DNA of 64,000 nucleotides from Natrinema salaciae. GTDB lineage: Archaea; Halobacteriota; Halobacteria; Halobacteriales; Natrialbaceae. The notes under the pieces are model-generated. The model had not been told where the DNA came from. It saw only the letters and a list, made by a program, of their open reading frames with translations, and ran no database searches. The translations under genes and the position numbers were made by a program. The DNA lies in NCBI RefSeq assembly GCF_900110865.1, contig NZ_FOFD01000007.1, positions 124,001-188,000 of the forward strand. Direction: 5' to 3'. Shown piece by piece: positions 30,792-45,615 of the stretch. Every line of letters starts with the position of its first letter. Position 1 is the first letter of the stretch.

Positions 30792-31598
30792 TTATCCGTG
30801 GCGACCGTCACCGCCGGTCGACGACAGAATCGACAGGAGTCCCACAGCCACGACGGCCGTGAGCGCGAGGCCGACCGTAAAGCCCGGAATCGGCTCGCTT
30901 CCGTCGGCGTCGTTCGGCTCGTCGGCCCCGGCCGAGTCGTTCGCGCTCGACGCCGCCGCGTCGCGGTCGATGTCGTCGGGATCGGGGTGGTCGAACGACG
31001 CGAGCGATTCGTTGCCGCCGTCGATGGCGACGGTCGCGGACTCGTCGACGACGGCGATCGGCCAGTCGCCGGTGAGGTCGATCTCGCTCTCGTCGAACGA
31101 GATCGTCGTCGTCCCGGGCGGCGCGTCCTCGGCGACGCGAACCGTCAGCGTCGCGATCGTGCCCGACCCCGTCGTCCCGTTGGCGGCCGGTTCGCGGCGC
31201 TGCTCGAGGATCGCGGTTCCCCGCTCGTGAGCGATCGTTTCCGCCGCGCGGACCTCGGTCTCGTCGCCCTCGAGCCACGGGCCGCGCCTCACCTCGGTGA
31301 TCTCGAGGTAGTCGGGATGGTATCGAGCGATCAGCGTCGTCGCTTCGACGCCCTCGCCGCCGTGGCCGCCCTGGCTCCGGAGGGTAACGTCGAGCTCGAT
31401 CGTCTCGCCGGGTGCGGCCTCGATCTGGGTCCGATCGGGCGAGAGGATCGCGACCTGATCGATCGCGACGGCCGTTCCGGCGACGCCAGCGATCGAGAGC
31501 GAAAGCGCGAGCAGGGCGGCTACCGTGGAAACACCGACGACTCGGGCGGCACTCGGCGCGGCGCTACCGGATCGGCCTCCGTCGTCACTCCCAGCCAT
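30792..31598 (-). CDS. Cohesin-like surface protein with PGF-CTERM-like tail
   Basis: A 268-residue protein with an N-terminal hydrophobic signal (VVGVSTVAALLALSLSIAGVAGTAVA, about residues 20-45). A cohesin-like beta-sandwich spans about 50-195 (APGETIELDVTLRS, ATLTVRVAEDAPPGTTTISF). An acidic Asp/Ser/Ala linker (200-235) leads to the C-terminal tail SEPIPGFTVGLALTAVVAVG, a PGF-CTERM-like sorting signal processed by archaeosortase. It is expected at the S-layer surface. If it binds dockerin modules it could be a partner of the PhoX-dockerin protein at 41197, but this is inferred. Confidence 0.75.
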   Translation of the reverse strand: MAGSDDGGRSGSAAPSAARVVGVSTVAALLALSLSIAGVAGTAVAIDQVAILSPDRTQIEAAPGETIELDVTLRSQGGHGGEGVEATTLIARYHPDYLEITEVRRGPWLEGDETEVRAAETIAHERGTAILEQRREPAANGTTGSGTIATLTVRVAEDAPPGTTTISFDESEIDLTGDWPIAVVDESATVAIDGGNESLASFDHPDPDDIDRDAAASSANDSAGADEPNDADGSEPIPGFTVGLALTAVVAVGLLSILSSTGGDGRHG

Positions 31599-40819: not shown

Positions 40820-41196
40820 GACGGCGGTTTCGGACTACCCCAGCCACGCTCCTCCCGTCGCTTTTCTCGGACCGACCGTCGTCGACGAGCCCTCGCCGAG
40901 CCACCGCTGAATCTGTCGCCCAGCGATCCCCTGACGGACCCGTCCGAGCAGGACGGGAGCGGAAACGCGAAGCGGTCGATCGTGGAACGACCGATTCCGG
41001 ACGGACGGGACGGCTGACCGGGGACCGCCGGTCCGCTCGAGACGCCGATAGACCGAACAGTACGACAATAGACCGAACAATAGAACACATATCTCTCAGA
41101 TCGCTCGGGAGCGGTCCGTAGCAGTTCTCGGCGTTCATTCGTCTCGATACGAATATTATAAAATCTAACTAAAACGCGGATGGTCGATCCCATCGC
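40820..41196. other. Intergenic region with promoter of the PhoX-like gene
   Basis: No gene is seen. The sequence holds an AT-rich promoter for the next gene: TATTATAAA at 41154-41162, about 38 bases upstream of the ATG. The frames on both strands have Arg/Ser-rich composition and are shadows. Confidence 0.55.
41154..41162 (+). promoter_or_regulatory. TATA box for the PhoX-like gene
   Basis: TATTATAAA is a clear A/T-rich TATA element. A transcript start near 41184 leaves a leader of about 13 bases before the ATG at 41197. No Pho-box-like repeat could be recognised by eye. Confidence 0.5.
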
Positions 41197-43815
41197 ATGG
41201 TCGAATTTACCAGGCGGAAGCTGATGGCAACGTCGGCGGCGGCCGCGATCGGCGTCGGCGCGGTCGGAACGGCGAGTGGAGACGACGGGGACACGCCGGG
41301 TGCTCCGACGGTACGGGGGAGCCTCGATCGACTCGCGACGACGGCCCGCGGGGCGGAGGTCACTGGCCCGTTCGTCTTCGAGAACGGGGAAGTGCTGTTC
41401 AGCCTGCAACATCCGAGTCGGGAGAATCCGAGCCCGTACGATACGGCGGCGGTCGGCGTCCTCGCCGGCCACCGGTTCGAGTTCGACGGCCGGAACGACG
41501 AGTTCGACGAACTCGAGCCGCCGCGCTCGAACGAGGCCCAGGGCCGGGTCCAGGTCGCCGGCGGCGAGTACGAGATCCTCGTCCAGGAGGGCGACGAGAT
41601 CAACGGCGGCGCGGAGCGATGGGGGCATCCCCAGACGCCCGACGGCACCGACATCGGCTCGTTCGTCGGCAGCCAGTACGGCGATGTCGGCTACAACCCC
41701 GACATGAACTTCTTCGTTCCGACCGACGAGGAGGGGCTCGAGGGGTACCTCTTTACGAACAACGAGACGAGTCCGGGCTGTATCAGCCGGACGCCGATCA
41801 GCCGCGGCGACGACGGCTGGGACGCCGATCCCGAGGGCGCGATGGAACTCGAGAACCGCGAGTCGTTCCGCGAGATCGGCGGGACGCGGATCAACTGTTA
41901 CGGCGACCTGAGCCCGTGGGGGACCCCGATGTCCGCCGAGGAAGACTACAGTCACCCGCGCGTTTCGGGATCGGCGACGGTCGGCGACGTCGTCGAGGCC
42001 GGGAGCGGCGTCGGTCTCCGAGGCGCGGCGGCGTTCTGGAACCGGCCGAACCCGACCGAGATCACGGATGCGCTGGACGAGCTGTTCGACGAGAGCTGGT
42101 ATCCGCAGGGGGGCTGGGCCCTCAGCGGCGTCGAGCTGCAGGCCTATTACCTCGGCGCCGACCCGGTCGATCAGGACGGCGAGACGAACACGACGGAGCC
42201 GATCGGCGACGGCTACCCCAACCGCTACCGGTACGGTTACATCGTCGAGGTGACCGAGCCCGCGAGCGCGGAACCGACGCCGGTCAAACACTACGCCATG
42301 GGCCGGGCCGCCTTCGAGTGTCCCGGGTTCATGCCCGACGAACGGACCGTCTACCTCACCTCCGACGGGGCGAACAAGGGCTTCTACAAGTTCGTCGCCG
42401 ACGAGCCGATCCCGAGCTACGACGATCGGATGGACGTCCGCGGGACGCTGTACGTCGCCCGCGTGACCAACGAGGCGGCCGCAAAGAACGACCCGCCGGC
42501 CGAGGTCGACCTCGAGATCGAGTGGATCGCCCTCGGCACCGCGAGCAACGCCGAGGTCGCGTCCTGGATCGCCGACTACGACGATATCACGCAGATCGAC
42601 TACCTCGAGACCCACGCCGAGACCGACTGGGAGACGGACCTCGAGACCGCGCTCGCCGAAGCCGACGAAACGGTCGCAATCGGGGGCAACCGGGACTACG
42701 TCACCGACGAGGAGGTCCTCGAGTGGGCCAGCCAGTACGAGGCGAACGGTCCCGACGGCGTCGACGAGGAACTGCGTCGGGTTCCCTTCCTCGAGACCCG
42801 CGCCGCGGCGAAGGCGGTCGGTGCGAGCGTCGAGTTCCGCAAGGCCGAGGGGATCGACGCGGTCGACGACGCCGACCCCGGCGACTTCCTCTACGTCGGG
42901 ATCTCGGAACTCAACGACGGCATGGCGGACGAGAGCGGCGACATCCGGATGGACCGGGTCGACGGCGGCGTCGTCTACCGGGCCGAACTCGAGTCCGACT
43001 ACGATATCTCGACGCTCGAGCCGGTCGTCGTCGGTCCCGACGCGACGGACCGCGAGTCGATCGTCGACGCCGCGCCCATCAACGTGGACAACCTGCTGGT
43101 ACTGGACGACGGCCGCGTCCTCCTCTGTGAGGACAAGGGGAGCTTCGGCCGCTCGTACCCCAACGACGCCCTGTGGGTCTACGAGCCGCCGACGTCGCTG
43201 TCCGTCGACTCCGTCGCGGTCGGGCAGGAGGCGACCGGGACCGCCGAACTCACGCTCTCGTCGGTCCCGGACGGGCTCGCCGGCGGTCGCGTCACCGTCT
43301 CCCTCGAGCACACCGACGTCGCCGAAATCACGGGCGCGAGCTACCACGGCGCGATCGAACTCGCCGCCGACCCGACGATCAGCGCCGACGGCTCGACGGT
43401 CGAGTTCCAGTTCGCCGACCTCGACGACGAGATCCAACCCGGCGCGACGAACGTCCGGCTGGCGACCGTCGAGCTCGAGGGCATCAGCGCCGGAACGACC
43501 GATATCACGGCCGATATCCACGCGCTGGACGCCGACGACGGGAGCGCGATCGACACCCGGTCGCACACCGGTGTCGTGGTTACCGGACCGCCACCGATCG
43601 GCGACGGCTCCGGCGGCCGCCCCCCGACCGACGTCGACGGCGACGGACTGTACGAGGACGTCAACGGCAACGGCCGGCTGGATTACGACGACGTGGTGGT
43701 CCTGTTCGAACACATCGAGAGCGACTCGGTCACGCTCAACGTCGACGCCTACGACTTCAACGACAACGGCCGCATCGACTACGACGACGTCGCCGAGCTG
43801 TACGACGAGCTGTGA
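41197..43815 (+). CDS. PhoX-like (DUF839) phosphatase with cohesin and dockerin modules
   Basis: An 872-residue exported protein. A Tat signal is at the N-terminus (TRRKLMATSAAAAIGVGAVG). A DUF839/PhoX propeller spans about 35-665, with MSAEEDYSHPRV and YGYIVEVTEP typical of PhoX. A cohesin-like domain spans about 668-795 (TGTAELTLSSVPDGLAGGRV, GATNVRLATVELEGISAGTT). The end, about 811-872, has two dockerin-type calcium loops: VNGNGRLDYDDVVVLFEHIE and FNDNGRIDYDDVAELYDEL. PhoX enzymes hydrolyse phosphate esters with Ca and Fe. The dockerin predicts docking to a cohesin. The next gene, five bases on, encodes a surface cohesin. Confidence 0.85.
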   Translation: MVEFTRRKLMATSAAAAIGVGAVGTASGDDGDTPGAPTVRGSLDRLATTARGAEVTGPFVFENGEVLFSLQHPSRENPSPYDTAAVGVLAGHRFEFDGRNDEFDELEPPRSNEAQGRVQVAGGEYEILVQEGDEINGGAERWGHPQTPDGTDIGSFVGSQYGDVGYNPDMNFFVPTDEEGLEGYLFTNNETSPGCISRTPISRGDDGWDADPEGAMELENRESFREIGGTRINCYGDLSPWGTPMSAEEDYSHPRVSGSATVGDVVEAGSGVGLRGAAAFWNRPNPTEITDALDELFDESWYPQGGWALSGVELQAYYLGADPVDQDGETNTTEPIGDGYPNRYRYGYIVEVTEPASAEPTPVKHYAMGRAAFECPGFMPDERTVYLTSDGANKGFYKFVADEPIPSYDDRMDVRGTLYVARVTNEAAAKNDPPAEVDLEIEWIALGTASNAEVASWIADYDDITQIDYLETHAETDWETDLETALAEADETVAIGGNRDYVTDEEVLEWASQYEANGPDGVDEELRRVPFLETRAAAKAVGASVEFRKAEGIDAVDDADPGDFLYVGISELNDGMADESGDIRMDRVDGGVVYRAELESDYDISTLEPVVVGPDATDRESIVDAAPINVDNLLVLDDGRVLLCEDKGSFGRSYPNDALWVYEPPTSLSVDSVAVGQEATGTAELTLSSVPDGLAGGRVTVSLEHTDVAEITGASYHGAIELAADPTISADGSTVEFQFADLDDEIQPGATNVRLATVELEGISAGTTDITADIHALDADDGSAIDTRSHTGVVVTGPPPIGDGSGGRPPTDVDGDGLYEDVNGNGRLDYDDVVVLFEHIESDSVTLNVDAYDFNDNGRIDYDDVAELYDEL

Positions 43816-43820
43816 GGTCG

Positions 43821-44510
43821 ATGGGACGACCACCACGACGGACCGCCCTGACGGCCGCCGTCTGCGTCGCGGTCGGTCTGGCTGTCGGCCTCGCGAGCCC
43901 GGGGATGGCCGCGAGCGGCGCGAGTGCCGACGCTGGGGCGACCCCGGCGGCGGCCGAGAGCCGCCTCGTCGTCACCGACGCGACCGTCGAACCCGGGGAG
44001 ACGGCGAGCCACCGGATCGCGCTCACCGACGCGCCGAACGGACTCGCCGGCTTCAAGCTCACCCTCGAGCTGTCGACCGACGACGCGACCATCTCGGACG
44101 CCGCGTACCCCGACACGTACGGGAAGACGACCCCTCCCCACGTGAGCGACGACGGGCAGTCGGTGACCGTCGAGGCCGCGGATCTCACCGACGAAGTGAC
44201 GGCGGGTGCGACCGACGTCACGCTCGCGACGGTCGAGGTACACGGGACCGACGCCGGCTCGACGGCGCTCGAGGTGACCGGGATGCAGGCCGACGCGGAC
44301 GGCGGCGACCGTATCGCACCGTCCCTCGAGGCGGGGACGCTCACTGTCACCGATGACGGGTCCGCACCCACCGAGACCCAGAGCGGGCGATCGGCCGACG
44401 GGACTGAACGCGACGATTCCATCCCCGGCTTCGCGGCCGGAACCACGATCGTCGCGCTCGCCGCCCTCGTGGTCGCCCTGCTCGCGCGGTCCCGGCGCGA
44501 CCCGCGGTGA
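43821..44510 (+). CDS. Surface-anchored cohesin-like protein with PGF-CTERM-like tail
   Basis: A 229-residue protein. The signal peptide covers about residues 1-32 (ALTAAVCVAVGLAVGLASPG). A single cohesin-like domain spans about 48-175 (LVVTDATVEPGETASHRIAL, VTAGATDVTLATVEVHGTD). A Ser/Thr/Glu linker follows, then DDSIPGFAAGTTIVALAALV, a PGF-CTERM-like sorting tail with a basic end. It is expected to be lipid anchored at the outer face. The ATG at 43821 is five bases after the PhoX-dockerin stop, so they are one operon. It is the most likely partner for the PhoX dockerin. Confidence 0.82.
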   Translation: MGRPPRRTALTAAVCVAVGLAVGLASPGMAASGASADAGATPAAAESRLVVTDATVEPGETASHRIALTDAPNGLAGFKLTLELSTDDATISDAAYPDTYGKTTPPHVSDDGQSVTVEAADLTDEVTAGATDVTLATVEVHGTDAGSTALEVTGMQADADGGDRIAPSLEAGTLTVTDDGSAPTETQSGRSADGTERDDSIPGFAAGTTIVALAALVVALLARSRRDPR

Positions 44511-44601: not shown

Positions 44602-45615
44602 ATGATCGAGGTCGCCACGCTGCTCCTGATGGCAACCGCCGGGACGGCGATCGTCTGGAAGGGAAGCGGCTGGCTCGAGGAGTCGGCGAACAAACTCGCG
44701 GTCGCGTACGGACTGCCGGCGGTCGTTCAGGGGGCCGTAATCGCGGCCGTAGGCTCGAGTACCCCGGAACTGGCGAGCGTCATTCTCGCGACGCTGATAC
44801 ACGAGGAGTTCGAACTCGGTGTGGGGTCGATCGTCGGCTCGGCGGTATTCAACCTCCTCGTGATTCCGGGGCTCTCGGTGCTCGTCGGCGGCGGGATCGA
44901 CACGACGCGCGAACTGGTCTACAAGGAGTCGCTGTTTTACATGCTCGCAGTCGCGTCGCTGTTGTTGACGTTCTCGCTGGCGGTCATCTACAACCCGGCC
45001 GACGTGGCCGGCGGCCGAATCGGCGGGAGCGTCTCGAGACCGCTCGCCCTGTTTCCGATCGCGCTGTACGGACTCTACCTGTTTACCCAGTATCTCGACG
45101 CCACGGAGGCCGACAAGGCGGCCGACGCATCGATCGAGCTCGCCCGGGCGTGGTTCTGGTTCGTCGTCGGACTGGCGTTCATCGTCGTCGGCGTGGAGGC
45201 ACTCGTCCGCGCAGCGATCGGGCTCGGTGCGGCGTTCGGGACGCCCACGTTCCTCTGGGGCATGACCGTCGTGGCCGCTGGCTCGAGTCTGCCGGATACG
45301 TTCGTCAGTCTCACGGCTGCGCGGGCCGACCGGCCGACAGTCACGCTGGCGAACGTCCTCGGGAGCAACACGTTCGACCTGCTCGTGGCCGTGCCGGTCG
45401 GCGTTCTCATCGCGGGATCGCGGACGGTAGACTTCGGCCACATCGTCCCGATGATGGGGTTTCTGGTGCTGGCGACGATCACGTTCTTCGCGATCTCGCG
45501 GACCGGAATGCGGCTCTCTCGACGGGAAGCGTGGTCGCTGCTCGTGCTCTACACAGCGTTCGTCTGCTGGCTCCTGCTGGAGAGTCTGGGCGTCGTCAGC
45601 GTGCTCGGGCTCTGA
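44602..45615 (+). CDS. Sodium/calcium exchanger family transporter
   Basis: A 337-residue CaCA-family antiporter with about ten transmembrane helices. The two alpha repeats are visible: VIAAVGSSTPELASVILATL near residues 46-65 and VAAGSSLPDTFVSL near 225-238, each with the conserved acidic residue that binds the cation. The second repeat is followed by GSNTFDLLVAVPVG. It exchanges sodium or potassium for calcium at the cytoplasmic membrane. The start at 44602 follows a TATA-like TTTTATACG at about 44570. It is transcribed alone. Confidence 0.9.
   Translation: MIEVATLLLMATAGTAIVWKGSGWLEESANKLAVAYGLPAVVQGAVIAAVGSSTPELASVILATLIHEEFELGVGSIVGSAVFNLLVIPGLSVLVGGGIDTTRELVYKESLFYMLAVASLLLTFSLAVIYNPADVAGGRIGGSVSRPLALFPIALYGLYLFTQYLDATEADKAADASIELARAWFWFVVGLAFIVVGVEALVRAAIGLGAAFGTPTFLWGMTVVAAGSSLPDTFVSLTAARADRPTVTLANVLGSNTFDLLVAVPVGVLIAGSRTVDFGHIVPMMGFLVLATITFFAISRTGMRLSRREAWSLLVLYTAFVCWLLLESLGVVSVLGL

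Follow-up and report, generated by a model that had tools for sequence, protein, structure and literature searches.

Organization of the PhoX-Anchor Locus

We analyzed a 64,000-nucleotide stretch of the Natrinema salaciae genome (4.86 Mb, G000; C7:124001-188000, hereafter the window), in which two adjacent forward-strand genes encode a PhoX-type phosphatase with a cohesin-dockerin tail (P0001) and a small protein with one cohesin and a putative surface anchor (P0002). Cohesin-dockerin docking is known mainly for the digestion of plant polysaccharides; the pair described here would link docking modules to the recovery of phosphate and nucleic acids by archaea of phosphate-poor brines.

P0001 (41197..43815, +) encodes 872 residues, beginning with a twin-arginine translocation (TAT)-type signal, TRRKLM, and has no lipobox. 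P0002 (43821..44510, +; 229 residues) consists of a signal, one cohesin, and a C-terminal tail made of a PGF motif, a hydrophobic stretch, and a basic end. Five bases separate the P0001 stop codon from the P0002 ATG at 43821; an alternative GTG start at 43812 overlaps that stop, an arrangement found in several orthologues. A first-pass annotation of this DNA had described the same composite phosphatase, a PhoX region followed by a cohesin fold and two dockerin loops, with a signal-cohesin-PGF-CTERM gene five bases downstream, and our analysis agrees with it in domain content, coordinates, and gene order, the tail of P0002 being PGF-CTERM-like.

The phosphatase domain (residues 40-660; 41314..43176, +) was assigned from a Pfam match, a fold match to 3zwu, and alignments. 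Residues 216-651 matched Pfam PhoX (PF05787) with 99.7 bits (cut-off 24; 3e-28), and the predicted model superimposed on 3zwu, the PhoX of Pseudomonas fluorescens, with a Z of 12.0 and a root-mean-square deviation (rmsd) of 4.4 over 381 residues. The Fe/Ca active-site residues of 3zwu are Cys179, Glu273, Glu387, and Arg385. Orthologue alignments place the invariant C234 and E374 of P0001 at Cys179 and Glu273, in agreement with membership of the same family, while in a by-eye alignment the invariant E551 is probably the counterpart of Glu387 and Lys549 takes the position of Arg385. The bacterial enzyme lacks a tail, in contrast to its haloarchaeal relative. A C-terminal blade motif of bacterial PhoX (G-x-I-x-R...G-x-EVTG...QHP) aligned best N-terminally in 16 of 18 haloarchaeal PhoX proteins, falling at residues 38-82 of P0001 (41308-41442). 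Because of this displacement, the alignments suggest that the PhoX propeller is circularly permuted in haloarchaea.

Cohesin and Dockerin Modules

Since Pfam missed these cohesins, we relied on fold prediction, with models built on 18 and 43 sequences. The internal cohesin-fold domain of P0001 (43186..43587, +) spans residues 664-797. In the predicted model, residues 664-798 best matched the solved cohesin 1g1k (Z 13.7; 128 residues at an rmsd of 2.4) and also matched the Archaeoglobus cohesin 2xdh (Z 12.6). Throughout the orthologue alignment the domain lies directly N-terminal to the dockerin, separated by a short linker. The dockerin (43630..43812, +) was recognized from Pfam, a PDB match, and loop alignment, and its calcium loops 1 (DVNGNGRLDYDD; 43657..43692, +) and 2 (DFNDNGRIDYDD; 43753..43788, +) were placed from the sequence and the loop positions in 63 enzymes. 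Both 12-residue EF-hand loops carry acidic or amide ligands at positions 1, 3, 5, 9, and 12 in nearly all orthologues, and the P0001 C-terminus matched the CelS dockerin in the PDB (E 1.7e-5). The full-length AlphaFold model of P0001 had a mean predicted local distance difference test (pLDDT) score of 53, with the dockerin below 50, and we drew no domain contacts from it.

The cohesin of P0002 (43959..44348, +) is homologous to the internal cohesin of P0001 (E 8.5e-14), and its fold was assessed on a family model, that of the Halorientalis orthologue. This model had a pLDDT >90 and matched type I cohesins with Z up to 15.8 and an rmsd of 2.0 over 129 residues; against 2xdh the Z was 15.0. A read-through construct, in which the Halorientalis dockerin was joined to the anchor cohesin by reading the stop as Gln, gave good predicted folds.

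Beyond the cohesin lies the anchoring tail (44424..44507, +), which aligned with TIGR04281 at its PGF end (E 8e-4); P0002 itself gave no match to TIGR04126. The protein ends in a PGF motif, a hydrophobic stretch, and RSRRDPR (IPGFAAGTTIVALAALVVALLARSRRDPR), and the same genome encodes the PGF-CTERM archaeosortase ArtA (E 3.2e-95). A PGF motif, a transmembrane stretch, a basic end, and archaeosortase A in the genome are the hallmarks of PGF-CTERM surface proteins, and P0002 and its genome show them all. A cellulosome is built on a multi-cohesin scaffoldin that gathers many enzymes; P0002 has one cohesin, and for that reason it resembles an anchoring protein rather than a scaffoldin and the system is not a cellulosome.

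Conservation of the Gene Pair

We scanned 84,980 species genomes, one genome per species, using tblastn thresholds; some of the searches scored just the first few candidates per genome. Sixteen full-length P0001 orthologues were found in Natrinema, Halovivax, Haloterrigena, Halopiger, Halobiforma, and Halorientalis, and every one is followed 3' on the same strand by a P0002 homologue, at a spacing of -4 to +46 bases. The conserved pair that the first-pass annotation had proposed to look for in other haloarchaea thus occurs in every one of the 16 named relatives, which span six genera. Within the family, long PhoX occurs in 44 of 125 genomes and has an adjacent anchor, judged from listed coordinates, in 43. 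Another 22 long PhoX genes were seen outside the family, 18 of them with an anchor alongside, and the long PhoX of the PhoD genomes treated below had one in nine cases out of nine, bringing the total to 70 of the 75 surveyed genomes with a long PhoX.

A short PhoX that ends at about residue 666, before the cohesin, was found at 20 loci, none of which has an anchor gene within ~2.8 kb. The difference between long-PhoX genomes (43 of 44 with an adjacent anchor) and short-only genomes (0 of 16) gave a Fisher p of 1e-13, a value that ignores relatedness. The PhoX-domain tree, however, requires at least four switches between long and short forms on well-supported branches, tracking the presence or absence of the anchor; the linkage is therefore not one inherited accident, although this count answers the relatedness problem only in part. 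Given the conservation of the pair across genomes, chance pairing is excluded. One further PhoX (G356; L217:1482-4328) has kept the internal cohesin and has neither a dockerin nor an anchor gene. Tandem long PhoX duplicates sharing one downstream anchor cohesin gene were also observed (L038, G067, G024, G026, G027, G028).

The Same Tail on Other Enzymes

When PhoX, PhoD, and the tail on its own were used as queries, the cohesin-dockerin tail turned up on PhoD phosphatases (1e-106 against Pfam PhoD), 5'-nucleotidases, choice-of-anchor-I proteins, which are a family of unassigned function, and SNase-domain proteins. In an order-wide search with the PhoX tail, the strongest full-tail matches, among those inspected or of fitting frame size, belonged to PhoX and these four families, and weaker matches included a cellulase, PKD-domain proteins, and others. 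The class of tailed proteins, as judged from sequence, is mainly but not strictly phosphoesterase; the PhoX-tail query favors near relatives, and the classification covered part of the match list.

Tailed PhoD genes had no anchor gene beside them. Among 11 genomes with a tailed PhoD, 10 carry the PhoX-anchor pair elsewhere (G008, G333, G287, G350, G408, G260, G199, G294, G387, and G323, in the last of which the PhoD tail is interrupted by a stop). A short, tail-less PhoD that ends near residue 540 also exists, and none of the four short-PhoD genomes tested has the pair. The simplest reading would be that tailed PhoD uses the shared PhoX anchor in trans. SNase and 5'-nucleotidase genes have their own adjacent anchor in some cases. 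Elsewhere in the N. salaciae genome (C2:617700-620300; L032:3685-6278, -), a cohesin and a dockerin lie in overlapping, different frames, as if a frameshift had disrupted an enzyme that bore this tail.

Dockerin Loop Classes and Possible Specificity

The same genome contains a glycoside-hydrolase cluster (C3:141905-171128; L027, L028). About 13 of its proteins carry dockerins, among them GH5, GH10, and rhamnogalacturonan lyase proteins. Beside these are an 811-residue scaffoldin, which combines three cohesins with two FN3 domains, PKD, and a CBM5/12-like module, and an anchor protein with a single cohesin and a weak PGF-CTERM match. By its predicted gene content, this appears to be a haloarchaeal cellulosome-like cluster. 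Loop positions 9-11, read from an alignment of 63 phosphoesterase-type tails, follow D-[YF]-x with few exceptions. Within N. salaciae, PhoX has DYD/DYD as against THA/GFA in the glycoside-hydrolase cluster, and glycoside-hydrolase dockerins of other genomes have other non-D patterns. In a cohesin tree that is approximate owing to its few columns, 37 PhoX anchors form one clade (Shimodaira-Hasegawa-like approximate likelihood ratio test, 95) and the glycoside-hydrolase anchors sit among scaffoldin cohesins. These observations suggest that the phosphoesterase and glycoside-hydrolase docking pairs are orthogonal.

Larger scaffoldin-like proteins were seen amid dockerin enzymes in other genomes, with 10 cohesins in G008 (L133:13156-19467), at least eight in G007 (L131:14976-20000), and at least five in G085 (L135:3-3563); the one of these with 2104 residues additionally bears a GH5 cellulase domain. 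Such cohesin numbers go beyond those of the scaffoldin-like proteins of anaerobic methanotrophic (ANME) archaea, for which up to five have been described (PMC9012536).

Proposed Mechanism and Alternatives

Taken together, the gene pairing and the predicted folds indicate that calcium-loaded dockerins probably plug phosphorus-scavenging enzymes into the membrane-anchored, single-cohesin P0002. P0001 would be exported through the TAT pathway, as its signal implies, and Ca2+ would occupy both dockerin loops. The loaded dockerin would then bind the single cohesin of the co-transcribed neighbor P0002, whose PGF-CTERM tail, once processed by archaeosortase A, would presumably hold it in the membrane. 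The phosphatase would act at the cell surface, where freed phosphate could be taken up rather than diffuse off. Further phosphorus-scavenging enzymes with dockerins, PhoD foremost among them, would probably use the same anchor in trans, and the internal cohesin could let a docked enzyme take on another, in the manner of monovalent adaptor scaffoldins. The N-terminal regions of tailed PhoX and PhoD showed no lipobox, one ambiguous case at L269 aside, so the enzymes should diffuse away when undocked. The first-pass annotation had placed the phosphatase on the S-layer through the neighboring cohesin, or else had it self-assemble through its own cohesin. Attachment by the neighboring cohesin is well supported by co-occurrence across genomes; the S-layer part is not, because a PGF-CTERM tail points to anchoring in the membrane or by lipid.

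Several observations weigh against anchor docking. Neither P0001 nor P0002 matched Pfam Cohesin (PF00963; E up to 1), and the related internal cohesins of 5'-nucleotidases reached 17 bits against a cut-off of 24.1. The P0001 dockerin scored 19.2 bits against Dockerin_1 (PF00404), under the cut-off of 22.9; several dockerins of the genome's own glycoside-hydrolase cluster also score near that cut-off. Five genomes from four genera (G023, G348, G176, G330, and G161) have a long PhoX and no other P0002-like cohesin; G023 has lost its anchor together with the Na/Ca exchanger that follows it, and there Asp replaces a dockerin-loop Tyr. One genome with a fragmented, 170-contig assembly (G087) has a tailed PhoD without the PhoX-anchor pair. 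Finally, every dockerin-bearing PhoX has its own cohesin, and the two tail domains may serve each other.

This last point leads to an alternative in which the partner of the dockerin is a cohesin of the type found in the enzyme itself, bound either within one molecule or between molecules, the latter yielding chains of phosphatase with the anchor as an occasional end. The two modules occur jointly on all five tailed families, the five anchorless genomes would be explained, and enzyme-cohesin-dockerin proteins acting as monovalent adaptors are known from Paenibacillus guangzhouensis (PMC11557425). In 70 of 75 genomes, nevertheless, the presence of the dockerin coincides with that of a distinct anchor gene, and the G356 cohesin persists without dockerin and anchor, which makes self-binding rather unlikely in our estimate. 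Both modes may operate, anchor docking and self-binding alike. The internal cohesin fold could instead be a mere structural partner of the dockerin, with binding left to the anchor cohesin, a parallel to the X modules that flank bacterial type II dockerins. Its constant position N-terminal to the dockerin, across no more than a short linker, would fit such a role; its true-cohesin match (Z 13.7) and its existence without a dockerin in G356 do not, and we regard this role as improbable.

Two further explanations dispense with the neighboring anchor altogether. The EF-hand tail might contact substrate, calcium, or the S-layer directly, with no cohesin involved, as is the published view for haloarchaeal mannanases and glycosaminoglycan lyases (PMC10963439, PMC13260240). 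That view leaves out cohesins, however, and does not account for the anchor cohesin being gained and lost in step with the tail; we regard it as improbable here. Least probable of all, and by our estimate very remote, is that PhoX docks into the scaffoldin of the genome's own glycoside-hydrolase cluster: a three-cohesin scaffoldin with about 13 dockerin proteins is indeed at hand on C3, but the loop residues differ (DYD/DYD versus THA/GFA) and the clade of PhoX anchors is separate from the scaffoldin cohesins.

Docking of the dockerin to the P0002 cohesin could be extended to a surface complex dedicated to phosphorus, in which PhoX, PhoD, 5'-nucleotidase, and nuclease proteins, all with the one type of tail, share a dockerin specificity orthogonal to that of the glycoside-hydrolase scaffoldin in their genome, and assemble on and form chains from the single-cohesin membrane anchor. 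We offer this wider scheme tentatively, as a possibility that falls short of an even chance. In Haloferax, external DNA is a source of phosphorus and growth on it needs the putative surface SNase lipoprotein Hvo_1477 of Haloferax volcanii (PMC3929857), which fits the value of surface retention. Hvo_1477 resembles the tailed proteins in being haloarchaeal and of the SNase family; it differs in having a predicted lipobox anchor and neither cohesin nor dockerin.

Relation to Known Systems

A close parallel is found in the adaptors of Paenibacillus guangzhouensis, in which a single cohesin and a single dockerin are likewise fused to a catalytic domain, and which have separate, single-protein cohesin surface anchors (PMC11557425). 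There, the enzymes are glycoside hydrolases of a Gram-positive bacterium with S-layer homology (SLH) anchors, whereas the haloarchaeal ones are phosphoesterases with a PGF-CTERM-like anchor. ANME archaea also have cohesin-dockerin surface proteins, whose cargo is mainly binding proteins of ABC transporters; the section of that account consulted here reports no phosphatase pair, and the paper cites archaeal cohesin-dockerin pairs shown to bind (PMC9012536). The non-cellulosomal cohesin/dockerin of Archaeoglobus fulgidus (2xdh) has the archaeal cohesin fold in common with the proteins described here. We know of no tie between the Archaeoglobus modules and phosphatases or a conserved anchor gene. 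By analogy, the PhoX pair may work in the way of dockerin enzymes anchored by non-cellulosomal cohesins.

Haloarchaeal dockerins have been described as substrate-binding, with cohesins unmentioned (PMC10963439, PMC13260240), and a comparison of haloarchaea that degrade cellulose is silent on both modules (PMC10267330). We found no relevant report in the open-access literature of haloarchaea with both cohesin and dockerin, nor of phosphatases on a cohesin-dockerin system. The earlier suggestion that a phosphatase on an archaeal surface scaffold would be new is consistent with this lack of precedent in the literature searched; "scaffold" is too strong a term for a single-cohesin anchor. If the proposed docking is true, haloarchaeal dockerins would gain a job different from the substrate binding ascribed to them in print, and salt-stable, possibly orthogonal docking pairs would become available for protein engineering. 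The gene pair is simple and conserved, and open to deletion testing.

Other Features of the Locus

Upstream of P0001, a TATA-like promoter element (ATATTATAAAA; 41153..41163, +) is the sole stretch conserved among orthologues, with a near-identical ATATTATAAA in nearly all of the 17 upstream regions compared. A perfect inverted repeat in the same region, ATTCGT-N6-ACGAAT, was considered as an operator and rejected, being kept in no orthologue. The window encodes a second single-cohesin protein (30792-31598, -) with a PGF-CTERM-like tail, which exceeds the Pfam Cohesin cut-off and is not near the PhoX type. Directly 3' of P0002 lies the Na/Ca exchanger family gene (44602-45612, +), the one lost together with the anchor in G023.

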